A DNA stretch of 55,836 bases from IMG/VR virus record IMGVR_UViG_3300014962_000009, positions 1 to 55,836 of that record. The stretch is one strand, 5' to 3'. Positions 8,094 to 48,311 of this stretch are shown one piece after another. How positions within the stretch are numbered: the stretch's first letter is position 1; each line of letters starts with the position of its first letter. A program made the position numbers and the translations under genes. The notes beneath the pieces were generated by a model. The model was not told where the DNA came from, did not search any database, and saw only the letters and a list, made by a program, of their open reading frames with translations. This DNA comes from a virus.

Positions 8094-8204
8094 TTAACCG
8101 CCAAAAGAAATATCCGCTATTGGCGCACCAGAAAAAGAGCCGTCAGACACAACAGCTACGCCACCGCCAGCACCACCAAAAAAAGAAATGATAATCCCGC
8201 TCAT
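8094..8204 (-). CDS. Micro-ORF, 36 aa, hydrophobic Gly-rich
   Basis: An open frame reading MSGIIISFFGGAGGGVAVV then SDGSFSGAPIADISFGG. Its ATG overlaps the stop of the upstream gene (ATGA), the standard spacing here, which is the main support. A short hydrophobic N-terminus followed by a Gly/Ser tail suggests a membrane-active or structural peptide beside the lysis genes. It may equally be chance. The 47 bases between it and the holin hold no gene. Confidence 0.4.
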   Translation of the reverse strand: MSGIIISFFGGAGGGVAVVSDGSFSGAPIADISFGG

Positions 8205-8470
8205 GCCATTCCCCTCATAAAGACAACCGTGTCAGCGTCAATAAACACTGCATTGACTATACTGCGCGGAGGAAACTCAATAAACCGATGCTTCTTGGTG
8301 TATCCAGAACGATAGCTATTGGCCACGTCACACTGAATAGATCCAAACTCATCCCGGTTATTGAACAAAATCAACATATCGCCTTGCGAAAATTCCCCGA
8401 ATGGAATTATCACCACCGAGGAATTTTCTATATTGACTATCTTATTTGCATGTTCCTTTGTTAACTTCAT
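8201..8470 (-). CDS. Small beta-sheet protein related to fibre C-terminal domain
   Basis: An 89-residue protein, mostly beta strand: VVIIPFGEFSQGDMLILFNN, then IEFPPRSIVNAVFIDADTVV. The GD-x-L-x-(L/V)FNN core and the following strand pattern match the C-terminal 60 residues of the fibre-associated protein at 14443-14913, so this looks like a free-standing copy of that domain. Start and stop both use 4-base overlaps with neighbours. Probably part of the tail-fibre assembly. Confidence 0.65.
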   Translation of the reverse strand: MKLTKEHANKIVNIENSSVVIIPFGEFSQGDMLILFNNRDEFGSIQCDVANSYRSGYTKKHRFIEFPPRSIVNAVFIDADTVVFMRGMA

Positions 8471-8898
8471 GGCTTTGGATATTTGGCCTTAATCGCTTCA
8501 ATCTTTGCGGCCATCTCAGCCGCAGCAGCGCCGCCCTTCCACATCGCCCCAAGTTGCTCTGCCAAAGAAGGATATTCAGCGCGGCGCTTAGCGTAATAGT
8601 CTGGCACGTCAGGGCGGACAATCTCTGACTTGTCGATAGGAACAGTCGTTGTCTTACCCGTCATCGGATCAGGAATTTCCCTTGTCTTAGGCGTCAGAGC
8701 TGTCCACGCGGCTTCCTTGGCATCGATGTCAGCCTTGATCGCAGCCTCTTTAGAAGCAAGATAGGCCGACAGATCCGCGCCCGGAGGAACAAAAGTCTGC
8801 CAGTCATAAGACCGACCGTTATGCTGAACTTTCAGATACGCAAGGCTGCGCTCTTCACCTTCAATATTAGAAGCCAACCCTTCAAGAGATACACTCAT
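8467..8898 (-). CDS. Fibre-cluster protein with tail-assembly-like C-terminus
   Basis: A 143-residue protein. The central part is charged and helical (LASKEAAIKADIDAKEAAW). The C-terminus (AEYPSLAEQLGAMWKGGAAA then MAAKIEAIKAKYPKP) is a motif widespread in phage proteins encoded just after tail fibres, some of which are tail-fibre assembly or chaperone proteins. It overlaps both neighbours by ATGA. A chaperone-like role is inferred from position only. Confidence 0.65.
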   Translation of the reverse strand: MSVSLEGLASNIEGEERSLAYLKVQHNGRSYDWQTFVPPGADLSAYLASKEAAIKADIDAKEAAWTALTPKTREIPDPMTGKTTTVPIDKSEIVRPDVPDYYAKRRAEYPSLAEQLGAMWKGGAAAAEMAAKIEAIKAKYPKP

Positions 8899-10250
8899 TT
8901 TATTGCCTCCAACCTAAAGTTTTTGCCCGGATGCTGCCCAGTTGCGGGCAGAATCTTGATGTCTTTAAATCCCACATGCGTACACAAGTCAGACAACGTC
9001 TTCGGTGTATAGCCCCAGAGATGAGGGGACAATGCACCTTTCTCTTCCGTTTCAGGCGTGATTCTGTCCACATGCGCCCCAAAGATACACATCGCCGTCA
9101 TGTGCTGCTCTGTGCCTTCCTGCTCCAAAAAATCCTTGCACAGCCCTGCCAAGTCCGGCAATTCCATAACAAGTTTGCCGCCTTCCTTCAGTGTGTTCAA
9201 CCATTTTCCCAAAACCTCCGGCGCACGGTGTTGCGGGATATGTTCAATGACATGGCTGGCAAATATCTCGTCAGCGCAGCCCTGAGGCAGATCCAACTTC
9301 ATGATGTCTTGCTTGATGTCGGCCGTGTCGCTGTGCATATCCACGCCCATATAGCCTTCCAAGCGATCCCGCCCACAGCCCATATTGAACCGGATTGGCT
9401 GGCCCTCTGCCATCATTTGGGCAAGGATCGCTTTGTACCCAGCAGTCGCGCCTGTGCCTTCTGGCAGACGATCAGCCCAGCGGCGATCAATGAACTCCTT
9501 GTCGTCCAGCGTCAGCGGTCTGGTCGGCGGGATGTTCGTGTAATAGTTCTTCAAGTCTACAGACGGATGAGCGGTATACATGCCGCTGGCCAAATCCATG
9601 TGCAAACACTGAACGTCCGTATTCACCAACAATTTCGTGCCGCGTTTGTGCAGTCGGTGGACAAAGAAATTGTCCTCACCAATGAACGGGATTTCACCAT
9701 TGATGTTGTTGCCGATGCAGCAAAATGGCATATCCGGCGCTTCTTCTTTCATCTGTTTCAAGAGCGCAATCGGAATCAGCATGATGTCCATACCGGTCTG
9801 CCACGCTTCAATCAACTGCCCCGGATCGACGTTCGGGATGGTGATCCAATCCCCCTCGCGCACCATAATCATCGCGTCTGAACACTTGATGTAATAAACA
9901 CCCGTCACCACCGCGCCGGGGTTTTCTTCGGCGGTCTTCAGCAGCTTCTTGAATCCGTCGTAAGGAACAACCGTGTCCTCGCCGATGAAGAGCATATATT
10001 TAGCCCCTGATTCAAGGGCCTGCTCGATCAGGTAATTGCGGGCCACGTCCACCTTCTCGCCGCCAATGTTCACAAAGCCGTGAGAAAATCCCATCAGGTC
10101 GATGTGCAGCCCTTCGTAACCATCAAAATTTTGTGCTGCGGTTTCTTCTAAGTTCCTTCTAGGCTGAGCAATTACAACGTAAGGTTTTATGGTTTTGGAT
10201 TCGTCGTAAATTTCTTGCATCGTATTTATTATTTTTTCCCTGCTATACAT
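8895..10250 (-). CDS. Bifunctional glycosyltransferase (GT-A) and SAM methyltransferase
   Basis: A 451-residue two-domain enzyme. Residues about 20-240 look like a GT-A glycosyltransferase: an N-terminal strand YVVIAQPRRN, the helix RNYLIEQALESGAKYMLFIG, and an acidic GEDTVVP motif near residue 88-95 that would bind the metal and nucleotide sugar. Residues about 287-440 form a class I methyltransferase: motif I FNMGCGRDRLEGYMGVD, the acidic strand end, then EIFASHVIEHIP and GGKLVMELPDL. A good GGAGGGAAT ribosome site precedes the ATG. Placed inside the fibre cluster, it may decorate fibres or host surface sugars. The substrates are unknown. Confidence 0.75.
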   Translation of the reverse strand: MYSREKIINTMQEIYDESKTIKPYVVIAQPRRNLEETAAQNFDGYEGLHIDLMGFSHGFVNIGGEKVDVARNYLIEQALESGAKYMLFIGEDTVVPYDGFKKLLKTAEENPGAVVTGVYYIKCSDAMIMVREGDWITIPNVDPGQLIEAWQTGMDIMLIPIALLKQMKEEAPDMPFCCIGNNINGEIPFIGEDNFFVHRLHKRGTKLLVNTDVQCLHMDLASGMYTAHPSVDLKNYYTNIPPTRPLTLDDKEFIDRRWADRLPEGTGATAGYKAILAQMMAEGQPIRFNMGCGRDRLEGYMGVDMHSDTADIKQDIMKLDLPQGCADEIFASHVIEHIPQHRAPEVLGKWLNTLKEGGKLVMELPDLAGLCKDFLEQEGTEQHMTAMCIFGAHVDRITPETEEKGALSPHLWGYTPKTLSDLCTHVGFKDIKILPATGQHPGKNFRLEAIK

Positions 10251-10279: not shown

Positions 10280-11659
10280 TTAGAATTTATTGAAAAACGG
10301 CGACAAACAATAGCCTATATTGCGTTGTGTGTTGGTGGAGATTTTTTGGCCTTTGTCCGCAGAATAAGGAACAAAATACAAATCTCCATTTGGTGTTAAT
10401 ACGCCGCTTGAATAAGCAGTTGCTGCAGTGTAAATAAGAGAATACGTTGAAACTACGCCTGAAGAAGAAATTTTTTGTCCTACAGCGGCAGAATGAGGAA
10501 TGAAATGCATGTCCCCGTTGGGCGCTAATACACCTCCTTGGTATGCGCTTGTTGTTGTGTAAACTAATGAGTAAGTAGAAACAACACCTGCCGCAGATAT
10601 CTTTTGCCCCACAACGGCATTCCTTCCCGCAATGAAATGTATGTCTCCGTTCGGAGCCAGCACACCACCAACATAAGCAAGCGTCGTTGTGTAAGCAAGA
10701 GAATAAGTTGAAACAACACCGGCAGACGAAATTTTTTGTCCTACAGCGGCAGAATAAGGAACAAAATGCACATCCCCATTGGGGGCCAATACACCACCTA
10801 AATATGCAGAATTCGCGGTATAAACAAGAGAATAGGTAGATACAACACCAGAAGATGAAATTTTTTGGCCTACAACGCCAAGGTGAGGAACAAAATGCGT
10901 GTCGCCGTTAGAAGCTAATACACCTCCCCAGTACGCATTTGATGCCGTGTAAACGAGAGAATAAGTTGAAACTACGCCAGACGACGAAATTTTTTGGCCT
11001 CTGTTGGCATTGAAAGGGACAAAGTTTATGTCACCATTGGGCGCTAGTACGCCGCCTCTGTGCGCACCGGACGCCGTATAAACGAGGGAATAAGTCGAAA
11101 CAACACCTGTTGCTGATATTTTTTGGCCTTTGTCAGCAACATAAGGAACAAAATGAATGTCGCCATTTGGGGCTAATACACCGCCTGAATATGCAGCACC
11201 CACCGTGTAAACCAAACTGTACGTGCTCACCATCCCACTAATATTGCTGTTGGCATAGGGCACCCCATTTACCACACCTCTGTCCAGCTCTTTCTTCAGG
11301 TTAGTCCAAGCATAAAGATCCGTGCCCACGCTGCTGTTGTCGGCGGTCGGCACCGTGCCTTCCGTGGCGTCTGCCGGGTAAGTACAAAAAACATCCTTGG
11401 TACCCGCCGACCAATTCACTAATGCGTTGCTGTTGGAAGATTCAAGCACCGTGTCGCGTGAAAGGGTGGTGCCAGAAGCTGTATACGTGCCAATGCCCAC
11501 TTCCCAATCGGTACCGTTGGTGATGCAGTAATAAGTCTGGTTGGCATTGCCGATGACGGAAAAAGATTGAAATCCTGCGACCGCCGCGCCCAGCGTAAAC
11601 GTGCCTGTGCCTGTCGTGGTGCTGGTAACTTTTACTCTGTCTTTGACAACGTAAGGCAT
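10280..11659 (-). CDS. Repeat-propeller tail fibre A (7 blades)
   Basis: A 459-residue protein. Residues 1-100 are a phage fibre N-terminal domain (VKDRVKVTSTTTGTGTFTLG, WEVGIGTYTASGTTLSRDTV, AGTKDVFCTYPA). From residue about 143 there are seven copies of a 43-residue unit with the frame VVSTYSLVYT-x3-AY-x-GGVLAPNGDIHF then VP-x-x-A-x-x-GQKIS, ending with a short tail ending SPFFNKF. Seven units fit a closed seven-bladed propeller, which is inferred. Neighbouring genes at 11670 and 13061 are paralogues. Likely a receptor-binding protein. Confidence 0.8.
   Translation of the reverse strand: MPYVVKDRVKVTSTTTGTGTFTLGAAVAGFQSFSVIGNANQTYYCITNGTDWEVGIGTYTASGTTLSRDTVLESSNSNALVNWSAGTKDVFCTYPADATEGTVPTADNSSVGTDLYAWTNLKKELDRGVVNGVPYANSNISGMVSTYSLVYTVGAAYSGGVLAPNGDIHFVPYVADKGQKISATGVVSTYSLVYTASGAHRGGVLAPNGDINFVPFNANRGQKISSSGVVSTYSLVYTASNAYWGGVLASNGDTHFVPHLGVVGQKISSSGVVSTYSLVYTANSAYLGGVLAPNGDVHFVPYSAAVGQKISSAGVVSTYSLAYTTTLAYVGGVLAPNGDIHFIAGRNAVVGQKISAAGVVSTYSLVYTTTSAYQGGVLAPNGDMHFIPHSAAVGQKISSSGVVSTYSLIYTAATAYSSGVLTPNGDLYFVPYSADKGQKISTNTQRNIGYCLSPFFNKF
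10335..11233 (-). repeat. Seven 43-residue propeller repeats of fibre A
   Basis: Seven in-frame units of about 129 bases. Conserved: VSTYSL, GGVLAPNGD and GQKIS. Variable: three residues before AY, the residue after AY, and the pair of residues on each side of the Ala before GQKIS. Framework codons differ between copies although the amino acids do not. Confidence 0.9.
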
Positions 11660-11669
11660 GTTTAAATCC

Positions 11670-13058
11670 TCAGTACTTGTTCAGATAGGAACTCAGGCAA
11701 GTGTCTATGCCGAAGGGTATTGCGGGGTTGGTGGAGATTTTTTGGCCTATAACAGCCCAATAAGGAATAAAATGAACTTCGCCATTTGGTGTTAATGCGC
11801 CGCCGCTGTATGCATTACCTGTTGTGTACAAAATAGAGTAAGTTGAAACAACACCCGTTGTTGAAATTTTTTGCCCTCTATTGGCCCCGAAAGGAATGAA
11901 GTGTATATCGCCGTTAGGCGCTAATACACCCCCTTGATATGCGCCTGCTGCGCTTGTGTAAACAAGGGAATACGTAGAAACCACGCCGGACGACGAGATT
12001 TTTTGGCCGCGATTGGCCAACGATGGAACAAAGTGCATGTCACCATTGGGCGACAATACACCACCAATGTATGCGCCTGCTGCGGTATAAATGAGAGAAT
12101 AAGTGGAGACAACGCCTGCCGCTGAAATCTTTTGCCCTCTATTCGCGATGTAAGGAACAAAATGCATGTCCCCATTGGATGCCAACACACCACCAAAATA
12201 TGCGCCCGATGCTGTATAAACAAGCGAATACGTTGAAACAACGCCCGCAGAGGATATTTTTTGGCCTACAGCAGCGCTGTAAGGAACAAAATGAATGTCC
12301 CCATTAGGCGTTAACACACCACCAGAATATGCGCCTGATGAGTTTGTGTAAACAAGGGAATACGTGGAAACAACTCCAGACGCTGATATTTTTTGGCCAC
12401 GATTGGCGCTGTTGGGTACAAAATGAATATCACCGTTTGGAGCTAATACACCACCAACGTATGCGCTTGCTGCAGTATAAATAAGAGAATAAGTGGAGAC
12501 AATACCTGAGGCTGATATCTTTTGCCCTACAGGGGCGCTGTCAGGGACAAAATGGATGTCTCCATTAGGCGCTAATACACCTCCATTGTATGCGCCTGTG
12601 GTTGTGTAAACAAGCGAATACGTACTAACAATCCCATTTGTGCCGTTATTGTTGAACGTCACGCCACCATTGATGCTGGCTTGCAAATTCTTCTGAAAAT
12701 TGTCAAACGCCACGCCATTTGTACCAATGCTGCTGTTGTCTGCGGTAGGCGCTGATCCCTGCACATTCTCAGCAGGCTGAGGCACGTAAACATCTTTTGT
12801 GCCTGCAGCGAAGTTCACCAACGCATTGCCGTTGGAAGATGCAAGCACCGTGTCTCTTGACAATGTTGTGCCGCTGGACGTGTAAGTGCCGATGCCTACT
12901 TCCCAAGCTGTACCGCCGACAATTGTGTAATAAGTCTGATTACCGTTGCCGATGCCGGAGAAGTCTTGATAACCCGCTATTGCTGCACCGAGCGTGAACG
13001 TACCCGTACCCGTCGATGTGCTGGTTACCCTTATGCGATCTTTGAGTACGAATGTCAT
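11670..13058 (-). CDS. Repeat-propeller tail fibre B (7 blades)
   Basis: A 462-residue paralogue of the fibre at 10280-11659 with the same N-terminal domain (KDRIRVTSTSTGTGTFTLGA, TAWEVGIGTYTSSGTTLSRD) and seven repeats beginning near residue 143. Two units carry one extra residue before AY (NSSGAY and SAAGAY). The last unit ends QKISTNPAIPFG and the protein closes with CLSSYLNKY, matching the CLSP-x-F-x-NK end of its paralogues. The 10-base gap to fibre A and the shared design indicate local duplication. Confidence 0.8.
   Translation of the reverse strand: MTFVLKDRIRVTSTSTGTGTFTLGAAIAGYQDFSGIGNGNQTYYTIVGGTAWEVGIGTYTSSGTTLSRDTVLASSNGNALVNFAAGTKDVYVPQPAENVQGSAPTADNSSIGTNGVAFDNFQKNLQASINGGVTFNNNGTNGIVSTYSLVYTTTGAYNGGVLAPNGDIHFVPDSAPVGQKISASGIVSTYSLIYTAASAYVGGVLAPNGDIHFVPNSANRGQKISASGVVSTYSLVYTNSSGAYSGGVLTPNGDIHFVPYSAAVGQKISSAGVVSTYSLVYTASGAYFGGVLASNGDMHFVPYIANRGQKISAAGVVSTYSLIYTAAGAYIGGVLSPNGDMHFVPSLANRGQKISSSGVVSTYSLVYTSAAGAYQGGVLAPNGDIHFIPFGANRGQKISTTGVVSTYSILYTTGNAYSGGALTPNGEVHFIPYWAVIGQKISTNPAIPFGIDTCLSSYLNKY
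11732..12632 (-). repeat. Seven 43-residue propeller repeats of fibre B
   Basis: Seven units with the same frame as in fibre A; the face positions read YSAAV, YIANR, SLANR, FGANR, YWAVI and similar in successive copies, whereas GQKIS and STYSL hardly vary. Confidence 0.9.
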
Positions 13059-13060
13059 AA

Positions 13061-14443
13061 TCAGAGCTTGTTCAAAAATGGGCTAAGGCACAAACCAATG
13101 CCTAAAGGTTGTCCGGGGTTGGTGGAGATTTTTTGGCCTACGGCAGCGCTATTCGGAACAAAATTAATGGTTCCATCGGGCGACAACACAGCCCCTTGAT
13201 ATGCGGATGACGCCGTGTAAACAAGGGAATACGTAGAGACAACGCCGGAGGCTGATATCTTTTGACCTCTGTTGGCGCTAAAAGGTATGAAATGCACGTC
13301 GCCATTAGGAGCTAATACGCCACCAACATACGCATCTGCAACTGTGTAAACGAGTGAATAAGTAGAAACCACTCCGGAGGATGATATTTTCTGGCCCACA
13401 ACGGCGTCCCTTGGAACAAAATGAATGTCTCCGTTGGGCGCTAGTACACCCGCTTGATATGCTTGCGCCAGTGTATAAACAAGAGAGTAGGTAGAAACTA
13501 CGCCTGCCGCTGATATTTTCTGGCCTACGGCGGCATTGGTGGGAATAAAATGTATGTCTCCGTTAGAAGCCAAAACACCACCAGAATAAGCAAGCGTTGT
13601 TGTGTAAGCAAGAGAATAGGTTGAAACAACACCGGCAGACGAAACTTTCTGCCCTCGATTGGCGCTTCTTGGGGCAAAATGGATGTCACCGTTTGGAGCT
13701 AATACACCACCGTTGTATGCATTCACTGCGGTGTAAACAAGAGAATAGGTGGAAACAACTCCAGAGGCCGACAGCTTTTGTCCTACAGGAGCATTAAAAG
13801 GCACAAAGTGAATTTCTCCATTAGGTGCTAATACGCCTCCAGCGTATGCAGACGCGGCTGTATAAACAAGGGAATAAGTTGAAACTACGCCAGACGACGA
13901 AATTTTTTGTCCTCTAGCGGCAGCAACTGGAACGAAGTGAATGTCTCCGTTGGAAGCCAGCACACCACCAGAATATGCGCTTGCAACTGTATAAACAAGG
14001 GAGTACGTACTTACCACCCCGTTGGTATTATTGTTCCCGAACGTCTGCCCACCCGCCACACCCGCATTCAGCGCAGTAGAAAGTGCCTGCCAACCTGAGA
14101 GATCAGTGCCTACCGAGTTGTTGTCCCCACTAGGCACACCACCCGGCGACGCAGCGGACGGATATGCGCACAGCACATCTTTCGTGCCTGCTGAAAAGTT
14201 TACTAACGCGCCGTTGTTGGAAGAGCCGAACACCAACTGACGAGAAAGCGTTGTGCCAGAAGCCGTGTAAGTTCCCTTACCTACTTCCCACTCTGTCGTG
14301 CCTTTGATGACGTAGTAAGTTTCGTTGCCATCCCCAATCACAGAGAACGCCTGATAGCCGGTCGCAGCAGCGCCTAGCGTGATCGTCCCCGTGCCTGTCG
14401 TGGTCGTCGTGGACTTGACTCTGTTTTTAAGAATGAGTGCCAT
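13061..14443 (-). CDS. Repeat-propeller tail fibre C (7 blades)
   Basis: A 460-residue paralogue, first of the three in transcription order. The N-terminal domain (ILKNRVKSTTTTTGTGTITL, EWEVGKGTYTASGTTLSRQL) differs most from the other two. Seven repeats follow, the last with altered frame residues (GAVLSPDGTINF). The ATG overlaps the upstream stop by one base (TAATG). The C-terminus CLSPFLNKL is shared with fibres A and B. Role as in the paralogues: probable receptor binding, carried on the tail. Confidence 0.8.
   Translation of the reverse strand: MALILKNRVKSTTTTTGTGTITLGAAATGYQAFSVIGDGNETYYVIKGTTEWEVGKGTYTASGTTLSRQLVFGSSNNGALVNFSAGTKDVLCAYPSAASPGGVPSGDNNSVGTDLSGWQALSTALNAGVAGGQTFGNNNTNGVVSTYSLVYTVASAYSGGVLASNGDIHFVPVAAARGQKISSSGVVSTYSLVYTAASAYAGGVLAPNGEIHFVPFNAPVGQKLSASGVVSTYSLVYTAVNAYNGGVLAPNGDIHFAPRSANRGQKVSSAGVVSTYSLAYTTTLAYSGGVLASNGDIHFIPTNAAVGQKISAAGVVSTYSLVYTLAQAYQAGVLAPNGDIHFVPRDAVVGQKISSSGVVSTYSLVYTVADAYVGGVLAPNGDVHFIPFSANRGQKISASGVVSTYSLVYTASSAYQGAVLSPDGTINFVPNSAAVGQKISTNPGQPLGIGLCLSPFLNKL
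13122..14017 (-). repeat. Seven 43-residue propeller repeats of fibre C
   Basis: Seven units as in fibres A and B, so the three genes hold 21 copies in under 3.8 kb. The fourth unit is nearly identical at DNA level to the fifth unit of fibre A over about 59 bases (13586-13644 against 10674-10732, two mismatches). Confidence 0.9.
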
Positions 14444-14913
14444 TAGCTTACGTTTCCTGAAATGACGCAGACCGTGCCACTAATGAACAGGATGCTGGCA
14501 ATGCCTCGTGTGGCCAACGTTACTGTTGCCTTATCCGTATCCGTACCGGCAATGTAAGCCGTTGTAATCGTACAAGTAATTGTGATGCCTGCGGAGGTGT
14601 TGTTGAATACCAAAACAGCGTCGCCTGCGGAGAAGGTCGAATTAGGAATCTCCACAGATCCACCGGAGCCAACTTCAATCGTTTGACCAACATCAGTAGT
14701 TAGCAGTGTATAAGCACCTGTTTTGGCAGCGCCAGAAACAGGAATCCCCGGCGCGGCCAACATCTCCACCGTGCCAGAAGAATTCTCGCAATACAACTTC
14801 ATATCCGCAATATTTAACCCTAACTCGCCTGCCAATAAATTGGCTGCTGTTGGGGCGGCACCGGCCGTTGTGCTGTGATAAAGCTGGATTGGGGTGTAAT
14901 TAGTTTGTGCCAT
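14443..14913 (-). CDS. Fibre-associated protein
   Basis: A 156-residue protein. The N-terminus (NYTPIQLYHSTTAGAAPTAA, LLAGELGLNIADMKLYCEN) is the common start of phage fibre or baseplate-attached proteins. A short linker (TGAYTLLTTDVGQTIEVGSG) leads to a beta domain with GDAVLVFNNTSAGITITCTI and a final ATRGIASILFISGTVCVISG. The last 60 residues are related to the free-standing protein at 8201-8470. Probably part of the fibre that carries the downstream propeller proteins. Confidence 0.7.
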   Translation of the reverse strand: MAQTNYTPIQLYHSTTAGAAPTAANLLAGELGLNIADMKLYCENSSGTVEMLAAPGIPVSGAAKTGAYTLLTTDVGQTIEVGSGGSVEIPNSTFSAGDAVLVFNNTSAGITITCTITTAYIAGTDTDKATVTLATRGIASILFISGTVCVISGNVS

Positions 14914-14922
14914 CTCAATTCC

Positions 14923-17271
14923 TTAAAAAGTTCCGCCAGAAATGCCGCCCCATGTGGGCGCAGATGCCCCAGCGACTAATACCTGCCCCTGTGAGCCAAG
15001 CGTAAGATTCGACAATGTCCCCGCACCAGATGCATATAATAAATCGCCTACAGCATAAGAAGTCAAACCAGTGCCGCCGTACAAAGGCTGAATAGCGCCT
15101 GCATTCCAAGTTCCTGCTGTCAGTGTACCAACACCCGTAATGCCAGTATATGAGCCGCTGATGTAAGCAGATCCTACTGTCCCAGAGGTAATCTGGTTGC
15201 CGTTAATGGAGATCGGCGTAGTTGCGGCCAAAGTCAATTGCCCTTGGGCATTAACAGTAAACGTCCCAACCGCCGAGGAAGAACCGTAAGCTGCTGCCGT
15301 TACTCCGGTATTGGTAATACTGAATGTAGTGCCGGTAAGACTTAGGCCAGTGCCAGCAGAATAAACCTGCGCTGAAGAAATTTGAGCAAACGTAATTGCA
15401 GTCGTGCCAAAAGTAATCGTGCCGACCGTATTACAAAGATAAGTCTCGCCCGCGCCCGTATTGCCACTGGTAACAAAAAATGCATCGCCCTGACCAAGAG
15501 CATTGGGGCTAGTAATGCCGTAAGTATCTGTGTCGGTGGAACGAGTCAAAACCCATGCCGTTGAACCATCACCCACGGTTGTGACCGTGTACACGCCATT
15601 CTCAAAAGCATTTGTCTGGTTATAAATCAAAATCCTGTCACCAACCATTGCCGTCGGGCCATCTGGAGCAAAAGCCGCTAAGGTGCCGTTATTGGTCAGT
15701 GTCGCCCCTACACCTACACCGGGGCCGCCGGGTTGGTTGTAGATGGCGTTCAGGTTGCCAGTAGTATTAGGCACCTCGTATTTGACAGGGGCATGGTAAT
15801 TAATACCTGCCGCATATAAGGTATCTACATACTGTTTGGTTGCCAACTGCAAGGCAGTTGTGGGATCTTGCGTAACAGCAACAGAGGTCAATCCGCCCAA
15901 GGTCAGACTGGATGAACCTAAAGAAATTGCCGTTGTTCCAATCGTTACAGACGAGTTGTCTAACGCGGCATTCGGAATGGCAGTCAGCGTATTGGTCGAA
16001 CCAGAGATCGACTTGTTCGTAAAAGTCTGAACGCCAGCCAACGTTGCAACTGTTGAATCTATAGTGATGGTGACAGGAGAAGATCCGTTATAGCTAGTCC
16101 CAGTTAAACCAGTGCCGATTGTTAAGGTACTCAATGTTGGGGCAGGAAGAACTCCAGACGCACCCAATGCAATCGTAACGCCATTAACCGTTATTGAGCT
16201 ATTAGCAAGCTGAACGTTAGAGATCGTTCCAGACAAAGCACTTGTAGGGACGGTGGCAGAAGCAGTCATCGCCCCAGTGCCATTCCCAATCACATAACCT
16301 GTCAGGCTTGTTGCTCCCGTACCGCCATTAGAAACGTTTAATTTGCGGCTCGGTGTAATGGTCCAAGACGTAGTAACTGGGCCGCCAGATGTTGTTAAGC
16401 CGGTGGTTCCACCTGATACTTCAACAGAAGTGACAGACCCAGCGCCCGCAGCTACCCAATAAGTATTGGTACCGTCAGTTGCCAAAACCTTGCCGTTTTC
16501 GCCTGTTTGGGAAGGCAGAAGGTTAGTCAGCGCACCATCCGGTGTTGATGCACCCGTCCCGCCTCGGACAACAGGAAGTTGACCATTGACGATTTGAGAG
16601 GCATCAATAGCAATAGAGACTGATCCTGCAGCCGTCAAACGGCCATAATCATCTACTGCAAAGGTCGATACTGCTGATGCCGATCCATAGCTTCCAATCG
16701 TTACCCCAGTGCTTTGCAGGCTAATTGTCGGGTTTCCGACACCATTGCCATTTGCAACATTAATTTGCCCTGCGGTACCCAAAATGCTGATATTGCCCGC
16801 AGTTGTGCCGTTTTGCACCGCAACAATCCCAGTGCCGCCAATGTTGGCAAATGCAGCAGCAAGCCCACTTAACGATAGTGTCGGATTTCCGGCAATTCCA
16901 TCACCATCAGCAATCGATAAGCCAGCCCCAGTAACCGCAATAGAACGGGCTGTGACGGCATTTGAGGCTGTCTTGACTATCAACCCATTACTAGCCGCCT
17001 CAAGGCTCCCAGAAGCCCCATTTAGCGTAATTGTGAGAGGTGCCTGAGCGCCTCCATCAGTCAACCCCAAGCCTGTGCTGGTAGACAAATACCGGCTGTT
17101 TGGCAAAGACGATTCAAGATCTTTGGTCAGGAACGTCTGCTGCAGGTTTGGAGTGGTTGCAACTTGCCCGGTCGTGGTGCGAACCGTCAATCCATTCTGA
17201 ACAATTGGAACAAGTTCTGTGCCATCGAGCGGTTGCGCCGCTGGCAATTGGGTTATCTGTACGTTTGCCAT
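14923..17271 (-). CDS. Large tail fibre protein
   Basis: A 782-residue protein with a typical attachment end (VQITQLPAAQPLDGTELVPI) and a long shaft of Gly/Thr/Ser/Asn-rich triple-beta-like repeats, such as GTGLTGTSYNGSSPVTITID, GGTGATSLTGYVIGNGTGAM and the final YGGTGLTSYAVGDLLYASGA. A segment near the middle (TKQYVDTLYAAGINYHAPVK) marks a conserved domain found in phage fibres, followed by a VPNTTGNL beta block. The start overlaps the previous stop by one base. It probably projects from the tail and recognises the host surface. Confidence 0.8.
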   Translation of the reverse strand: MANVQITQLPAAQPLDGTELVPIVQNGLTVRTTTGQVATTPNLQQTFLTKDLESSLPNSRYLSTSTGLGLTDGGAQAPLTITLNGASGSLEAASNGLIVKTASNAVTARSIAVTGAGLSIADGDGIAGNPTLSLSGLAAAFANIGGTGIVAVQNGTTAGNISILGTAGQINVANGNGVGNPTISLQSTGVTIGSYGSASAVSTFAVDDYGRLTAAGSVSIAIDASQIVNGQLPVVRGGTGASTPDGALTNLLPSQTGENGKVLATDGTNTYWVAAGAGSVTSVEVSGGTTGLTTSGGPVTTSWTITPSRKLNVSNGGTGATSLTGYVIGNGTGAMTASATVPTSALSGTISNVQLANSSITVNGVTIALGASGVLPAPTLSTLTIGTGLTGTSYNGSSPVTITIDSTVATLAGVQTFTNKSISGSTNTLTAIPNAALDNSSVTIGTTAISLGSSSLTLGGLTSVAVTQDPTTALQLATKQYVDTLYAAGINYHAPVKYEVPNTTGNLNAIYNQPGGPGVGVGATLTNNGTLAAFAPDGPTAMVGDRILIYNQTNAFENGVYTVTTVGDGSTAWVLTRSTDTDTYGITSPNALGQGDAFFVTSGNTGAGETYLCNTVGTITFGTTAITFAQISSAQVYSAGTGLSLTGTTFSITNTGVTAAAYGSSSAVGTFTVNAQGQLTLAATTPISINGNQITSGTVGSAYISGSYTGITGVGTLTAGTWNAGAIQPLYGGTGLTSYAVGDLLYASGAGTLSNLTLGSQGQVLVAGASAPTWGGISGGTF

Positions 17272-29203: not shown

Positions 29204-32200
29204 TTAATTAACCGTCCAGATTGATTTCACTGCGCCGCCATTAGCAAAGGCAGGCGCTTGTACAAATAGACCGCCGTCAGACATATCGGGGTCAGAGTTA
29301 TATGAATTGACTTCACCGCCTTCAGCCATGCCTTGTACATGCTTCTGCAGCATCTCGTTAAAGCGGGACTCGTAGTCCACAGCACCACCTCCTGCCATGC
29401 CTGCGACATGATCTTGCAGCATTTGGTTGAAGCGGGATTCGTAATCGACTGCGCCACCTTCTGCCATGCGGACAGCGCCACCGTCTTTATATGACTGGCC
29501 TATCTTGGCAGACTCACGCATCTTAGGTGTGATGTCGATGTAATACACCTTCTCGCCCATATCAGGCCGGAACTTGCGCAAGACTTGATTGAAGATACGA
29601 GCATATTGATCATCAGACATTTGCAGCGCACTTTTACCGCCTGATAGGCTCATCATCTCCCGAATAAATCCGGGCATAGAAGTGATCTCGTCAATTTGTT
29701 TTAAGGTAAGGTCATGCATACCCTTACCAGCAGCAGGCAGCGTAGTCTCACCCACCTTGGCACCAAACTGCTTGGCATACTTGTCGAGGAAGTTCTTGTA
29801 GGTCTTGTCGTAATACTGGCGCATACCTTCGCCGCCGACTTTAAGGTCATTGCCCTCCAAAGTTTTCCAGCCAGAAAATTCTTTGGCATTAATAATTTTA
29901 TCCGCAGCATCTTTGCCAATGTAATCAGCAAGGCGATCTTTGGTCACATTTTCATATTTGATTGTGCCTTCTCCATTGGCTCTTTGAGCAGCAAAGCTCC
30001 CAGTAGATTCATTCCAAACAACTTTGTCTACTTGTTTACTCAAGTCATAACGATCAGCCTGCCGCGCACCCGTAGTCAGGTACACCCGATCCATGCCAGT
30101 GTCTGCAGCTTCTTTGACCGCACGCTTTAGTCCAAGCTGATACCAATTGTCTTTAAATGGGGCGTCGGGGACGGCTCTGTAATAAGCATTTGAAAGATCA
30201 GTAAATCTCCGCTCTTCTGCCGTTGCCTGATCCAATAATGGCCGTATCTCTTTTTGTCTAGCAGGGTTACCACTGTTTCTGTTGAATTCATTTAACAATT
30301 CTGTCGCCCTACGTCTTGCCGCAACATACTCAGGATCTTCCCAAGAAATTTGGGGCACTTTACTTTTGTATCCCTTTTCTCTCCCCTGCTGATGCCAGTC
30401 AGATTGCAGCTCATCAATCAGCAAGCCCTTCTTGCCTTCAGCGTCAGTGTGGTCAGCTACACGCAGGTGGAATAGGACGTTGGGCTCATCACCGTGGTGG
30501 GTTTGGTGCATGAAGTCCTGAACGTCGCCAGCATCAGCTCTTTCAATGGCTGCGTTGTATTCTGCCCTCGACATATTATTAATTGATGGCCGATTGCTAG
30601 GCAGTCCAACGCGGATCTCGCGGTAGTTCTCACCACCCGGCAGGTTGTATTCAGGCGCTGCATTCGGGCCAAACTTGGCTGGGCCAGAACGCATTGCCTG
30701 CTGGTACTCCTTCTCAAGCGTAGACAGATGACGCTCAATCTCAGCATACTCACGGCTATCAGAGTCGAGGTACTGCAACTCTTCCTTCAGGTTGTCAATG
30801 CTTTCGGCAATAGCGTCTAGCTTCTCATTGCTCTCAGTGCGCACTGTCTCTTGCAGTGGGATGCGATTCTGTTCTGCGGCAGCAACCAACTCCTCACGAG
30901 TTACGTTCGGACGGGAGGCCAGATCACCCAGACCAAGCTCAGTCAGGCGCTCATCGTTCACACCCGGCGTCTTCTTCATCTCAGATACAAACGCTGATCC
31001 CGGCCCCTGCTTACGCTGCACATTGAGTGCCGCCTTCTCTACGGGGTTGTAAAAGCCCAGATCATTTGCCGGAGCCTTGACCTTACCTTTGGGGCCGCTT
31101 TCAGGCACCATACTCATGCGCATCGGGGCTGTGGCCCTCTGGAGTTGCATCTCTAGAATGTCGGCAGGCGTAGGTGCCAATGCCTTAGCACCTGCCGTGC
31201 CGTACTTCAGCGCCTTCTGTGCAGCACCGGGGGCCAAGATGGCCGTGCCAAGCTCAGTCAGAGGACGCTCCTCACCCGTAGTAATGCCAGCCCTGCGCAT
31301 CAGCTCTTGAGCGCTCTCAGTGCCATAAGGCATCGTGCCCTGTGGGCCAACCTGAACCTTGGGCGCATAGCCCATGGGGGGCGTTCTCTCAGGGCCAGTA
31401 TCCATTACAGACGCAGGCTTGCGCAGGCCGGGGATTTTTGTCTGCAGCCAATCCAGTGCCTCGCCACCCATGCCGATGATGTCCATCGGAGCACCAGCAG
31501 CAAACGCCACAGGGCCACGCATCAGGATGTCGGTCAGCGCACCCGGCTTGCGCATCGATCTGCGCTCCCGTTCTATCTGAGCCTTCGCCGCATCAGACAG
31601 GTCAGTTAATGGCTGAGGGATTGTCAGTGGCTTAGGGTTGAACATCTCGCCAATCGACTGCCCCGGCTCGTTACCGCCTGCCATATGCACAGGGCCACCA
31701 TCCTTCTTGCCAGTCAATTCCTTGATGCGACGGCGGTACTCACCAATCTCGTCGAGCAATTGCTGGTCAATGATCTGCTTACCACCAACCATCTGCAGAG
31801 TGCCGAACTCGCTGCCTGCCTGCTTAGGATTAGCGCGGATGCCAGCCACCGTATCAGGGAAGGTCAGCTCATAAGGCATCAGTACATCAGTGCGGCCAAG
31901 GAACTGCCCCGGAATATCATGCGAGTAAGTCGGATGGGCTGATGGTTTCAAACCCTGTACTCCGGGCTCCATCTGCATGAGGGAATAGCCAGTCATGCCG
32001 CGTTCCATGTCCCGCAGCTCAGGCTCACTGACGGCGTGACGGACATTCAATCCGCTGGGCAGGCCAAGCTCTTCTGTTGTCTTAGTGAGCTGCATCACTG
32101 AGTTGTAATGCTTACGGGCCTCAGGATTCTCAGCCATATACAGATAAGCCGCTTCTGGATGCTCAATGCCGGGGAAGTCAGGGAACTCACCTTTGAGGTT

Positions 32201-39084: not shown

Positions 39085-39250
39085 CTCTGACTCCCATCAT
39101 CATGTCAGCCATATCAAATGCAGCTTCAGCAATAAACCTGAGATTGTGTTCACTCTCAAATATTTCTGGATCCACCGATGACATCAAGCCTTGTAATGCA
39201 AATGCAGCAAAAGCACATCGCATCTGCTCTTCAGTATCAAACATGCTCAT
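39065..39250 (-). CDS. Small helical protein, 61 aa
   Basis: An acidic helical peptide: MSMFDTEEQMRCAFAAFALQ, GLMSSVDPEIFESEHNLRFI, AEAAFDMADMMMG. Overlaps RuvC by ATGA. No function is recognised. Confidence 0.6.
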   Translation of the reverse strand: MSMFDTEEQMRCAFAAFALQGLMSSVDPEIFESEHNLRFIAEAAFDMADMMMGVRVAKTRH

Positions 39251-39708
39251 GAGAATGTTCTCCTTGCGTAATCCGCTATAAGTAAAGCTTCAGCCTTGCC
39301 ATGGTCTTTCTTCAGCAGCAGTTTAGCTTGCGGGAAAGCAAGCCGAGCTGCTATTAACGATTTTTCCTTCTCGGAATTCAAGCTCATCGCTTTTTTCCAT
39401 ACTTGAGGTATAACGTAAAAAACCCTATCAGTACTGAGTTCAGCAACAGCACCAATAGCACCAAAGGCGCGCATAAAACGCCCAGAACTGGCAATGCCTT
39501 GTTTGGGCATGACGCCCACCTGCTCAAGACAGATCGCATAATCATCTCCCGGTATCGTCATATCAAGAATCATTTGCTTCAATGTGCGAACATCAATCCT
39601 GTCATTGATTGCAGGAATGTCGTAAGCAGCAATGAAATTACCATTATGGTCTATTGCGCCAATGGCCCCAGTGCGCAGACCGGGGTCAATTCCGATCCAT
39701 ACCGTCAT
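39247..39708 (-). CDS. RuvC-like Holliday junction resolvase
   Basis: A 153-residue RNase H-fold nuclease. D8 in WIGIDPGLRTGAIG, E62 in AICLEQVGVMPKQG, and the C-terminal KKDHGKAEALLIADY (D135, E140, D146) place the four acids of the RuvC active site; the third position may use E140 rather than Asp. It resolves branched DNA at the end of replication or before packaging. It lies in the left early block. Confidence 0.85.
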   Translation of the reverse strand: MTVWIGIDPGLRTGAIGAIDHNGNFIAAYDIPAINDRIDVRTLKQMILDMTIPGDDYAICLEQVGVMPKQGIASSGRFMRAFGAIGAVAELSTDRVFYVIPQVWKKAMSLNSEKEKSLIAARLAFPQAKLLLKKDHGKAEALLIADYARRTFS

Positions 39709-42935: not shown

Positions 42936-43123
42936 AAACCATTGAAGCTGCGGCTGTCTCTTACGTTATTTGTATTGCGCTGTTCTCTGTCTTTTGGGGA
43001 TACGCCGCACTATCAAAACCGATGCCGAAACTAAAACCGCTATGCGGTGTAGTAGAAATAAGCCCTGACGTTAACCACGCAGACAAAGAACAATGCAGAA
43101 AAATGAGGAGGCGCTCTTTGTGA
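42932..43123 (+). CDS. Small membrane protein, 63 aa (TTG start)
   Basis: A protein with one helix (AAAVSYVICIALFSVFWGYA) and a basic C-terminal tail (ADKEQCRKMRRRSL). GGGAG precedes the TTG, which overlaps the previous stop (TTGA). It is one of three consecutive tiny membrane proteins at the head of the right operon. Confidence 0.55.
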   Translation: MKTIEAAAVSYVICIALFSVFWGYAALSKPMPKLKPLCGVVEISPDVNHADKEQCRKMRRRSL

Positions 43124-43869
43124 TTCATTATCATGGGTTACCAATTACGCCAGCAACAGCAGCTTTAAGGGCGATAAATAGTGGTCATGCATTTATCAGT
43201 TTTCGCCATCCAGATCAATTAACGCTTGCTCTAGAAGTTGCGCAATCTTTTGCTTTAGATAATGGTGCGTTTTCTGCATGGCGTAGCGGGGAACCAATTA
43301 CCGATTGGTCTATGTATTATGAATGGGTTGCACAACTTCACAGGTATCCGGGGTTTGATTTTGCGGTAATACCAGACGTAATTGATGGCAGTGAAATAGA
43401 TAACGATATCTTGATGTATCAATGGCCTTGGAGGCAGTCAGCCCCATGGGTTGGTGCTCCGGTTTGGCACTTACATGAGTCATTAGAAAGGCTAGACAGA
43501 CTGGTATCAAAATGGCCCCGGATTTGTTTAGGCAGCTCAGGGGATTACGGTCAAATTGGAACCCAAGCTTGGTGGCATCGGATGGCGGAAGCCATGGATG
43601 TAATCTGCGATAAACAGGGAAGACCGGCCTGCAAGATACATGGATTACGAATGCTAAATCCCGAAGTATTTTCTAGATTCCCATTTGCCTCTGCTGATAG
43701 CACAAACATTGGGCAAAACATTGGCATTGATTCTGCATGGAAAGGAACATATACGCCGCCAACAAAAGAGGCAAGGGCAGCGATTATGAGGGAGCGTATT
43801 GAATCTCATCAAAGCCTAACCTTTTGGGATCGTAAATTAAATCCAATTCAGGAGACTCTGTTTGGTTGA
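43120..43869 (+). CDS. TGT/DpdA-like enzyme (putative DNA deazaguanine transglycosylase)
   Basis: A 249-residue protein. YHGLPITPATAALRAINSGH starts a likely TIM barrel; ISFRHPDQLTLALEVAQS and FALDNGAFSAWRSGEPIT resemble the substrate-pocket strand of tRNA-guanine transglycosylase relatives, PDVIDGSEIDNDILMYQWPW and VWHLHESLERLDRLVSKWPR follow. The end KLN-x-IQETLFG is short. GTG at 43120 with GAGGAGG upstream overlaps the previous stop, so it is preferred to an ATG at 43093. In phages such DpdA proteins place preQ0-type bases in DNA. No folE, queC, queD or queE homologue is seen here, so the substrate would come from the host. The function is provisional. Confidence 0.55.
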   Translation: MIHYHGLPITPATAALRAINSGHAFISFRHPDQLTLALEVAQSFALDNGAFSAWRSGEPITDWSMYYEWVAQLHRYPGFDFAVIPDVIDGSEIDNDILMYQWPWRQSAPWVGAPVWHLHESLERLDRLVSKWPRICLGSSGDYGQIGTQAWWHRMAEAMDVICDKQGRPACKIHGLRMLNPEVFSRFPFASADSTNIGQNIGIDSAWKGTYTPPTKEARAAIMRERIESHQSLTFWDRKLNPIQETLFG

Positions 43870-46830: not shown

Positions 46831-47173
46831 GTTTCCGCAAGCCACCACTGACCAGCTTTATTTTAGAGATCCTGCAATTGAGCCACCCCCTCGGGCTACC
46901 AGCATGTTGTTGTTAAATCCCGGCGGGGTATGCATCATAGGGGTTTGGGATGATAGTTGCATTGGCTGGTGCCCAAAACCAAAGATACCTAAAACATTAA
47001 AAAGAAAAATGACTACTGCAGAATACCAACAGATGATGCTTGAGCGTCAAGAAATGCTAGAACAAGCGTTTGATAACGCATACAAAGGTTTTGCCACCGA
47101 AGAAGACTGGGCGATTCTTCGATCTGAATGTGGTTTACCCGCCCTGAAGCGAAAGGAAGAATCATGTCTTTAA
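46823..47173 (+). CDS. Hypothetical early protein, 116 aa
   Basis: A protein with a Pro/Gly-rich head (LYFRDPAIEPPPRATSMLLL, NPGGVCIIGVWDDSCIGWCP) and a charged helical tail (TTAEYQQMMLERQEMLEQAF). It ends 10 bases into the next gene. Function unknown. Confidence 0.6.
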   Translation: MTEFPQATTDQLYFRDPAIEPPPRATSMLLLNPGGVCIIGVWDDSCIGWCPKPKIPKTLKRKMTTAEYQQMMLERQEMLEQAFDNAYKGFATEEDWAILRSECGLPALKRKEESCL

Positions 47174-47796
47174 TAGCGAAAGCAGAGTCCAATAACTCTT
47201 CATTTACCCCCGTGCCAACAGGTATGCATCTGGCCCGGTGCTTCCGTATTGTCGATCTCGGCACACAGAAGTCCACCTACAAGGGCACTGATCAATATAA
47301 GCGGAAGATACTAATCCAGTTTGAGATCCACTCAGAAGACGCACAAGGCAGCCCCTTGCTGACCGATAAGGGTGAGCCTTTGTCTATATCAAAGCGCTAT
47401 ACCTTGTCTCTCAATGAGAACGCTACCCTATCTCATGATCTGGAGTCGTGGCGTGGATCTGCATTTACTGCAGACGAGCGCAAAGGATTCAACCTTGAGA
47501 AGCTCTTGGGCGTCTGGGCCATGCTGAACGTCACAAAGAGTCTTGGTAACGATGACAAGGAATACACCAATATCGAGACTATTAACCCAGTCCCAGCACA
47601 GATCAAGAAAGCTGGCCTTCCAGCTCCTCACAATGATACTTTGATCTATAGCATTGATAGCAGCGGTGAAGATGTTTTCAATAAGCTATCGGAAGGTGTA
47701 CGCAAAACCATTTCCAATAGCCCTGAGTTTCAAGCAAAGAGCAAACAAGCGCCATATGACGATGGATTTGGCGATAACCCCAACGAACCATTCTAA
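47164..47796 (+). CDS. Candidate single-stranded DNA-binding protein
   Basis: A 211-residue protein. MSLIAKAESNNSSFTPVPTG leads to beta strands (GMHLARCFRIVDLGTQKSTY, RKILIQFEIHSEDAQGSPLL), a central basic region and an acidic end (YDDGFGDNPNEPF). OB-like order plus an acidic C-terminal tail fits phage SSBs, where the tail recruits recombination proteins. AAGGA precedes ATG at 47164. Followed by a regulator and an exonuclease. The assignment is by pattern. Confidence 0.5.
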   Translation: MSLIAKAESNNSSFTPVPTGMHLARCFRIVDLGTQKSTYKGTDQYKRKILIQFEIHSEDAQGSPLLTDKGEPLSISKRYTLSLNENATLSHDLESWRGSAFTADERKGFNLEKLLGVWAMLNVTKSLGNDDKEYTNIETINPVPAQIKKAGLPAPHNDTLIYSIDSSGEDVFNKLSEGVRKTISNSPEFQAKSKQAPYDDGFGDNPNEPF

Positions 47797-48043: not shown

Positions 48044-48311
48044 TGGGGCGGACTATTGCCCAGACAGAGACAATCTCAGACTCAAAGGCCAGTTGCTCAG
48101 GGTTTGGGATGTCATGAAGGATGGAAAGTGGCGAACCCTGCGGCAGATTGCAGATACCACCAAAGACCCCGAGGCCAGCATTAGTGCGCAATTACGGCAC
48201 CTCAGAAAAGAAAGATTCGGGGCCCATCAAATTGAGCGCGAATATACAGACAACGGTATATACCAGTACCGGCTAGTCATTAACGAAGAGAAAGGTTTCC
48301 ATGTTAGCTAG
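48018..48311 (+). CDS. Winged-helix DNA-binding protein, 97 aa
   Basis: A protein starting IQKEIRFDGADYCPDRDNLR, with DVMKDGKWRTLRQIADTTKD and PEASISAQLRHLRKERFG as a winged-helix core and REYTDNGIYQYRLVINEEKG as the wing. ATG at 48018 after GGGAGAAGG is preferred; it overlaps the HTH gene by 26 bases. Probably a transcription or replication regulator. Confidence 0.65.
   Translation: MIQKEIRFDGADYCPDRDNLRLKGQLLRVWDVMKDGKWRTLRQIADTTKDPEASISAQLRHLRKERFGAHQIEREYTDNGIYQYRLVINEEKGFHVS

Follow-up and report, generated by a model that had tools for sequence, protein, structure and literature searches.

What kind of process could leave a virus with three adjacent genes, each ending in the same motif repeated seven times, with one part of the motif nearly fixed and another differing strongly from copy to copy? 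The question is raised by an aquatic bacterial virus (IMG/VR record IMGVR_UViG_3300014962_000009), in which the whole stretch analysed, here called the window (55,836 nucleotides), carries three tandem tail-fibre-like genes on the minus strand: gene 1 at 13061–14443 (460 aa), gene 2 at 11670–13058 (462 aa) and gene 3 at 10280–11659 (459 aa). An earlier reading made from the sequence alone had proposed three tandem genes of seven units each, and the open reading frames agree with it to the nucleotide. All three products share one architecture: a tail-fibre-like N-terminus, seven units that each begin with VSTYS, and a short cap; Tandem Repeats Finder returns a 129-nt period in every gene. The unit length, described in that reading as exactly 43 residues, is slightly off, because three of the 21 units (blade 5 of gene 3, blades 3 and 6 of gene 2) have 44, the remaining 18 having 43.

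In gene 1, the N-terminal anchor domain (residues 1–143; 14015–14443) occupies the first of three slots and is recognised by tblastn and by its slot-specific inheritance. It is followed by seven units of 43 residues (13121–14014), which unit alignment and structure prediction identify as a propeller, and by a cap ending in CLSPFLNKL (13061–13120), delimited by the conservation of the last 60 nt between phages. The anchors of gene 2 (slot 2; 12630–13058) and gene 3 (slot 3; 11231–11659) are placed by reading frame and slot-specific inheritance, their propellers (11730–12629 and 10334–11230) by Pfam match, units and column entropy, and their caps, ending in CLSSYLNKY (11670–11729) and CLSPFFNKF (10280–10333), by the unit layout. 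All of these lie on the minus strand, as do the two genes upstream. The nearer one, a short tail-fibre-like gene of the same module (14443–14913, 156 aa), matches N-terminal stretches of PHROG tail fibre and baseplate wedge families (best E 6.2e-9); the larger one (14923–17271, 782 aa) probably encodes a structural protein, a role suggested by its matches to phrog_30390 (function unknown, E 3.9e-14) and phrog_2647 (head decoration, E 3.7e-5). The N-terminus of gene 1 matches eight phage records by tblastn, five of them annotated there as tail fibre, and the three genes combine such an N-terminus with a position in the tail module. A blade-probe search of the window found no blade copies beyond these genes.

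The arrangement recurs. We gathered 73 loci, most of the relatives being metagenome contigs; 40 loci have at least 1.5 kb flanking both array ends, a few of these being near-identical contigs. Blade number is nearly constant, with three genes of seven blades each (7/7/7) in 37 of the 40, and the repeat anatomy together with this shared layout therefore makes the observation something other than chance. Exceptions occur outside the 40, in L057/L058 (14, 14 and 7 units) and L060/L063 (14, 20 and 19 units). The collection amounts to 171 distinct seven-blade genes, and one scan of bacterial and archaeal genomes gave 59 pattern matches, none of them a true relative.

The propeller fold proposed from the sequence is supported by the AlphaFold model, a confident seven-bladed propeller (pLDDT about 94 across the propeller; strands of unit 1: a, 157–162; b, 168–172; c, 177–181; d, 187–191), and by its closest solved structures, which are virginiamycin B lyases (2z2o, Z 33.0; 2qc5, Z 32.6; first non-lyase 26.5). 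The Vgb_lyase Pfam match exceeds its cut-off in all three genes, and no WD40 row appears. A viral structure library gave 171 matches at E ≤0.001, many of which cover little of the model (TM 0.19).

Where in this fold does the variation lie? Eight columns (10, 11, 12, 15, 30, 31, 33 and 34) account for 57% of the summed entropy in the 21 units of the window, at 1.57–2.95 bits each; moderate variability (1.5–1.75 bits) is also seen at columns 25, 40 and 41, and VSTYS, GG, NG and GQK are invariant or almost so. Across 735 units from 35 loci, variability falls on these eight columns again (1.57–3.77 bits); columns 13, 40 and 41 reach 1.8–2.0 bits there, and all others stay below 1.2. Placed on the AlphaFold strands, columns 10–12 and 15 fall in the d-a loop and the start of strand a, and columns 30, 31, 33 and 34 in the b-c loop and the start of strand c. 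These most variable columns are predicted to share one face of the propeller, because the blades of the model are antiparallel and four-stranded. The expected clustering on one face is thus supported, with two loops predominating and no scatter over the fold. The framework had been described as nearly fixed although its codons vary, which the column entropy bears out together with codon usage: between blades of the three window genes, the same codon is used at 31–41% of shared, mostly four-fold framework residues, and the mean between phages is 32%. Coupling within blades is strongest for columns 33–34 (N-R versus x-V), 40–41, 39–41 and 10–13; between blades there is little, and loop residues are slightly more similar inside one propeller than between propellers.

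Anchors and propellers are inherited in different ways. The best inter-phage match of an N-terminus lies in the same slot in 95 of 98 cases, that of a propeller in 39 of 105 (35 by chance). Among 142 inter-phage gene pairs, which share members, with N-terminal DNA 85–99% identical, the propellers are below 75% in 133; six of the remaining pairs are intermediate and three have a propeller identity of at least 0.90. Across the 133 swapped pairs (36 loci), identity drops sharply at the propeller edges, from 0.86–0.94 in the N-terminus to 0.67–0.70 in the units (background 0.61–0.67), and stands at 0.89–0.91 in the cap (background 0.53–0.62). Silent codons are replaced as well, agreeing at 0.753 in the N-terminus and 0.391 in the propeller, for which the background is 0.339. 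The last 60 nt are 0.82–1.00 identical in phage pairs with differing propellers, except in L029 gene 2 (0.44) and in L006/L038 (0.60). Genes change independently of one another, as in L030/L004, where the gene 1 propeller is 0.71 identical beside a cap at 1.00 and the gene 2 propeller 0.92. Gene 1 of L049/L034 is a mosaic, its blades 1–3 scoring 0.57–0.60 and blades 4–7 0.08–0.30. A breakpoint in gene 2 of L029/L030 (blades 1–3 at 100%, blades 4–7 at 66–73%) was dropped as evidence, because the contig of L029 stops 54 nt past the gene and its cap mismatches, so that it may be a chimera.

The main detectable event thus appears to be the replacement, between phages, of a whole propeller or an in-register run of blades. 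The sequence-only reading had ascribed the variation to recombination between blades; recombination does emerge as the likeliest source, judging from the edges, the silent sites and the mosaic, but mainly in this form. We consider it probable that the locus encodes a hypervariable receptor-binding propeller, driven by recombination, free of reverse transcriptase and working like the fungal NWD WD40 repertoire; within this reading, the binding of a receptor, the place in the virion, the route of recombination and selection exerted by changing host surfaces are inferred.

Would ordinary exchange of tail-fibre tips suffice, with the repeat structure playing no special part in diversity? Sharp cassette edges and slot-independent propellers fit module exchange, and variable host recognition genes are familiar in aquatic phages from excerpts of PMC3909814 and PMC7029224. 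The blades themselves, however, bear traces of copying. They are near-identical within some genes (up to 97.6%), and at least 80% nt identity is reached by 286 of 3348 within-gene blade pairs versus about 0.2% of between-gene pairs; 45 of the 171 genes contain blade pairs scoring at least 0.5. In L065 the propellers are 80–88% identical and the N-termini 19–41%, and these propellers appear to have been copied between slots of one phage. Concerted evolution within and between paralogues is clear in part of the genes (P 6e-4; 56% of 153 genes). Such copying, along with the partial-propeller mosaic of L049/L034, makes simple tip exchange an unlikely account, if one deserving consideration.

Blade copying has its bounds. 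In the window genes, silent similarity within the gene and against the sister genes is 0.40/0.38, 0.41/0.39 and 0.31/0.36, and because there is no clear within-gene excess, no recent homogenisation is indicated. The sole sign of copying in the window is a possible copied blade, blade 4 of gene 1 (13499–13627, minus strand) and its partner, blade 5 of gene 3 (10583–10714, minus strand), which match at 83% over 144 nt with 150 bits, the runner-up reaching 96; among 147 pairs compared, this one scored 0.55 (per-pair P 2.6e-4). Between loci, and outside close gene pairs, the different-index pairs number about half a million and none reaches 88% nt; 8 of them reach 86% and 37 reach 84%, compared with 4 and 15 same-index pairs. 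A frequency-corrected score of at least 0.5 is attained by 287 of the 604,548 pairs that differ in index and by 89 of the 100,758 that share it. Because these off-index matches (score up to 0.71) mostly join genes with homogenised blades, they provide no clear case of a single blade transferred to another position. In a blade-order test, 58 of 14,394 inter-phage pairs had the matched order as the best of 720, where 20 would be expected. The shuffling anticipated in relatives is therefore seen as copying of blades inside a gene and of propellers among a phage's three genes, not as clear single-blade moves between phages; nor do the relatives show identical blade order everywhere with no trace of recombination.

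A localised hypermutation would place the source of variation elsewhere: a mutagenic process of unknown kind would saturate the propeller in place, with purifying selection keeping the framework. Propeller silent sites close to background beside conserved flanks agree with this, as does the failure to find a high-identity donor of a swapped propeller on a different anchor in another phage (best cross-slot match between phages 0.81). No reverse transcriptase, however, was found in 36 records (the window and 35 related, many of them fragments) or in two cyanophages, and one blade probe each, used on the window and the two cyanophages, matched only inside propeller genes, revealing no template repeat. 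The earlier statement that both are lacking holds within these searches, and a DGR reading is rejected. Hypermutation also fits poorly with the scarcity of intermediates between near-clonal and background identity (6 of 142 pairs), with the L049/L034 pair, which shares one blade run and not its neighbours, and with the few silent changes inside the blades of the cyanophage pair; we regard it as improbable.

That cyanophage pair shows another mode of change. Cr-LKS4, reported from isolation, has Cylindrospermopsis raciborskii KLL07 as its record host; the cyanophages carry one propeller gene, not three, and its protein is annotated as hypothetical. The two proteins are mostly 95–100% identical outside the propeller and residues 161–280, the latter varying as much. 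Blade differences lie mostly in the d-a and b-c loops, the exceptions being some changes where strand b ends and a single framework change. The pair is best described, from these alignments, as loop change with homogenised blades and not as a cassette swap.

The framework evolves with a dN/dS of 0.07–0.12. In the loops, 58 overlapping within-gene pairs give a ratio of 1.58, 35 same-index pairs between phages give 0.92, and disjoint pairs give 1.15–1.23 with intervals that include 1 (1.23, 0.72–2.18, for 31 disjoint pairs). The excess over 1 appeared with overlapping pairs and weakened once pairs were disjoint. Positive selection at loop residues is only suggested.

Folding might fix the framework and leave the loops as unconstrained linkers with no binding role, which would suit a loop ratio near 1 with disjoint pairs and window framework codons that differ between blades about as much as between phages. 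Drift alone, however, would not replace propeller silent sites beside conserved flanks; Y, F, R, H and Q are frequent at columns 15 and 30, and most codon differences of the cyanophage pair are in the loops, so that this account seems distinctly improbable. That the proteins are streptogramin lyases or related enzymes borne on the tail, as the Pfam and nearest structural matches might suggest, is scarcely credible: E-x-H is absent from all 1197 units (columns 10–17, which align with the active site, the Vgb alignment being uncertain by 1–2 positions), His occupies columns 14, 15 and 16 in only 23, 10 and 0 of them, and the curated NCBIfam Vgb(A)/(B) families score at most 57.8 bits against a cut-off of 600. 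The catalytic residues of Vgb we take to be H228, E268 and H270, and H270A is named as inactive in a matched Vgb structure. Lyase function is rejected, and the case serves as a warning that tail proteins can exceed the Pfam cut-off for an antibiotic lyase family.

How might a recombining propeller system operate? Phages must track changing host surfaces, and the known targeted solutions are retroelements and fibre-tip swaps. In the reading favoured here, three paralogous tail-fibre proteins would fill three fixed virion slots, each being an anchor, made of a slot-specific N-terminus and a common C-terminal cap, that bears an exchangeable seven-bladed propeller able to bind the host surface. 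Purifying selection would hold the blade framework, and residues of the d-a and b-c loops would change freely, forming a binding surface on their shared face. Homologous exchange in co-infection would swap a whole propeller or an in-register blade run, with homology provided by three conserved parts, the anchor, the cap and the blade framework; unequal exchange or gene conversion would duplicate blades inside one gene and carry copies of propellers among the three genes that a phage has, and point changes in the loops would afterwards be retained. A bolder version, which we offer tentatively and with considerable doubt, is a diversity engine free of reverse transcriptase in which three fixed sockets would hold propeller faces made combinatorial by blades recombining within the gene, between genes and between phages, giving three independently evolving specificities per virion. 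The 171 genes constitute natural variants on one scaffold, and Cr-LKS4 gives a phage in which binding could be tested.

The supposition that no such phage system had been described agrees with a search of the open-access literature (PMC subset), which turned up none. Highly repetitive beta-propellers amplified from single blades, with viruses among the sources, appear in excerpts of PMC9218822; their near-identical blades recall those described here, but the theme there is recent amplification, and the words 'phage' and 'hypervariable' are absent from its text. In aquatic phages, host recognition modules and metaviromic islands (excerpts of PMC3909814 and PMC7029224, whose main texts lack the word 'propeller') likewise have a C-terminal fibre part that varies between close phages; here, however, the replaced unit is a seven-blade repeat, and blades are also copied. 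Vgb itself (2z2o, 2z2p, 2qc5) shares the seven-bladed propeller and detectable sequence similarity, whereas the phage proteins lack the catalytic motif, have blades near-identical to one another and combine a tail-fibre-like N-terminus with tandem triplicate genes. BPP-1 Mtd is reportedly a DGR-diversified phage receptor-binding protein. Tentaclins are others, according to excerpts of PMC10743442 and PMC6199706. In all of these, and presumably in the propellers, a fixed scaffold presents a hypervariable face for binding; unlike them, the propellers come with no reverse transcriptase or template repeat found, and their silent sites are replaced too.

The lamprey VLR system, to which the propellers had been likened, is also built of modular repeats whose variable residues share one surface, but it has an LRR fold and somatic assembly; the phage genes gave no sign of such assembly or of a programmed repertoire within a single lineage. 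Fungal NWD WD40 genes, with which PMC2873952 in part compares VLR, match better, having the same variable loops and blade exchange. Excerpts of PMC1805685 and PMC2873952 describe, for NWD/HNWD allorecognition in Podospora anserina, near-identical blades on a fixed framework, exchange within and between paralogues, blade numbers from 2 to 15 and reported positive selection; the variable residues lie in the d-a loop and b-c turn of the top face (PMC1805685). As far as those excerpts go, the phage genes share the near-identical blades, fixed framework, variable d-a and b-c loops and paralogue exchange. They differ in being Vgb-type tail fibres and not WD40 intracellular NLR-type proteins, in having seven blades in nearly all cases, in replacing whole propellers on slot-bound anchors, and in that positive selection is only suggested. 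The replaced unit would be a repeat protein in which symmetry could itself provide homologous sequence for recombination and in which the variation sits in the loops, a parallel with non-self recognition in fungi; should this hold, one design would link two distant arms races.

The three propeller genes lie consecutively on the minus strand (14443-10280), with tail-fibre-like genes upstream and, directly downstream, a gene (8895-10250) whose halves resemble a glycosyltransferase (PHROG) and a methyltransferase and whose product could modify the fibres. In the related locus L067 the array is likewise followed by a protein of similar appearance (8198-9016). In each array protein 143 residues precede the first of seven units, which are followed by a short cap whose last residues are NKL, NKY or NKF. 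The N-terminal domain, or anchor, has protein matches in Roseobacter, Pelagibacter, Methylophilales and uncultured phages, and tail fibre is the annotation in five of the eight phage records matched. The window is the entire 55,836-base virus record; its nearest terminase and portal in the phage collection belong to an uncultured Manatee Spring phage (64% and 61%), followed by those of Caulobacter phages (44-48%).

AlphaFold, supplied with an alignment of 60 relatives, modelled residues 141-440 of the propeller protein with a pLDDT of about 94. The top matches among solved structures are virginiamycin/streptogramin B lyases (Z 33.0 to 32.4 over 293-299 aligned residues), and the next matches, at Z 26.5 and below, we take to be other propellers. 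Each unit contributes strands a (YxGGVL), b (IHFVP), c (xGQKI) and d (VSTYS), and the ring is probably closed by pairing of the first VSTYS strand with the last blade. Because all three tail proteins (10280-14443) pass Pfam's threshold for the virginiamycin B lyase family, automated pipelines may call them antibiotic-resistance genes.

Five scans of viral contigs, taking the best 80 matches each, yielded 72 to 76 largely overlapping loci apiece; a single scan of bacterial and archaeal genomes returned no relative. Among the 73 loci of the architecture census (the window and those of one viral scan), 40 are flanked by 1.5 kb or more on either side of the array, and 37 of these carry three genes of seven blades, the exceptions being two loci with a third gene of 5 or 6 detected units and one with two genes. 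Beyond the 40 flanked loci, genes of 14 to 20 units occur on four contigs that represent two distinct sequences; the related genes at L057:1177-5994 and L060:4768-13197, with 14, 20 or 19 units (the one of 19 runs into the end of the locus), suggest two or three propellers per protein. The gene 2 propeller at L005:7273-8677 is seemingly split between frames, with 5 units and then 3 in the next, which may be real or an assembly error.

Anchors, unlike propellers, are inherited slot by slot. In 35 distinct loci, the best match of an N-terminus in another phage falls in the same slot of the array in 95 of 98 cases; for propellers this holds in 39 of 105, with 35 expected by chance. Amino-acid identity of blades between phages averages 71.7% for the same gene and index, 71.5% for the same index in another gene and 69.8% for other blades, so that a blade resembles its own counterpart no more than the same index elsewhere. 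Unrelated propellers are found in phage pairs with near-identical surroundings. We compared the 142 (69 + 62 + 11) gene pairs from different phages whose N-terminal DNA is 0.85-0.99 identical; the pairs share members and are hence non-independent. Propeller identity is below 0.75 in 133 (68 + 57 + 8), intermediate in 6 and at least 0.90 in 3. Across the 133 swapped pairs (36 loci), every 30-base bin ahead of the first unit shows an identity of 0.86-0.94, each unit one of 0.67-0.70 (background 0.61-0.67) and the cap one of 0.89-0.91 (background 0.53-0.62). Silent codon agreement is 0.753 in the N-terminus and 0.391 in the propeller, against a background of 0.339; as silent codons drop too, amino-acid selection alone is insufficient, and import or hypermutation is required. 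Change in one gene of a phage is independent of the others: between loci L030 and L004 the gene 1 propeller is 0.71 identical with a cap at 1.00, yet the gene 2 propeller is at 0.92. A mosaic is seen in gene 1 of L049 and L034, where blades 1-3 are common (score 0.57-0.60) and blades 4-7 are not (0.08-0.30); L037 shows a patchier likeness to both.

Near-identical blades inside some genes point to copying within a phage. Blade pairs of at least 80% nucleotide identity number 286 of 3,348 within genes and about 0.2% between different genes, and with a frequency-corrected score of at least 0.5, 220 of 3,591 within-gene pairs are near-duplicates, in 45 of 171 genes; none of the 171 first-last blade pairs reaches that score. 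Agreement of silent codons declines from 0.423 within genes to 0.397 between the genes of a single phage and 0.323 between phages (within-gene versus sister-gene, P 6e-4; 56% of 153 genes). Whole propellers may be alike as well: L065 carries three that are 80-88% identical on N-termini only 19-41% identical, and propellers on different-slot anchors in different phages match at best at 0.78-0.81. The window genes display no clear within-gene excess of silent agreement. Blade 4 of gene 1, however, matches blade 5 of gene 3 at 83% identity over 144 nt, better than the next match; with 147 pairs tested, this is suggestive of a blade copy.

Variability is concentrated in few columns of the aligned unit. 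Entropies, computed on 735 units of 35 loci, are 1.57 to 3.77 bits in columns 10, 11, 12, 15, 30, 31, 33 and 34, 1.8-2.0 in columns 13, 40 and 41, and below 1.2 in the remainder. The eight top columns map to the d-a loop with the start of strand a and to the b-c loop with the start of strand c. Propeller blades have four antiparallel strands, which places the d-a and b-c loops at the same end, and by this knowledge of the fold the variable columns would share one end of the blade; columns 40-41 are located at the c-d turn, at the opposite end. Columns 33-34 hold a strongly coupled two-state motif in the window and its relatives, N-R (362 of 1197 units) or x-V, with A, P, T, V or S before the V. 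For the eight columns dN/dS is 1.58 among recent within-gene copies (58 overlapping pairs; framework 0.09) and 0.92 among same-index pairs between phages (35 pairs; framework 0.07); disjoint pairs with a gene bootstrap give 1.15-1.23 (framework 0.09-0.12), and the intervals include 1. The loops are thus at least free to change, and the figures suggest that diversifying selection on them is likely.

Loop turnover and homogenisation find support, independent of metagenome assembly, in the complete genomes of two Cylindrospermopsis phages, CrV-01T (Netherlands; record without host name) and Cr-LKS4 (Israel; isolated from Lake Kinneret, according to PMC10811720), although repeat collapse is possible in both. 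Their propeller protein of 1130-1138 residues bears the annotation hypothetical and is encoded two genes away from a protein annotated as virion structural. Its amino-acid identity is 95-100% save for residues 161-280 (70-90%) and the seven-unit C-terminal propeller (80-90%). Blades share 95.7% and 92.6% of nucleotides within the respective phages and 90.2% between them. The majority of differences sit in the two loops corresponding to those of the window, the others being at two positions where strand b ends and at a framework V/I in one blade; changes restricted to the first blade are common to both phages, and silent changes are few. Neither record yielded a reverse transcriptase or a blade copy outside the propeller gene.

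We conjecture that the exonuclease-like gene (phrog_298; 48301-49068), near the gene for an NGO0469-family replication initiation protein (47128-47796), and the Holliday junction resolvase-like gene (39247-39708) may be recombination tools. The window further encodes a queuine tRNA-ribosyltransferase-like protein (43093-43869; phrog_887, E 2.7e-73) with a possible function in DNA base modification, and holds short tandem repeats with periods of 12 and 69 nt (1138-1342 and 29314-29469).

Two reports on Podospora genes (PMC1805685, PMC2873952) describe a comparable system: blades are exchanged within and between genes, and four codons, located in the d-a loop and b-c turn at the top of the propeller, are under diversifying selection. 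Our searches of open-access papers turned up no phage example of such a system. By analogy, the phage array would work like the Podospora system without membership in it, since it differs in propeller family and protein context, in its near-constant blade number and in the replacement of whole propellers.
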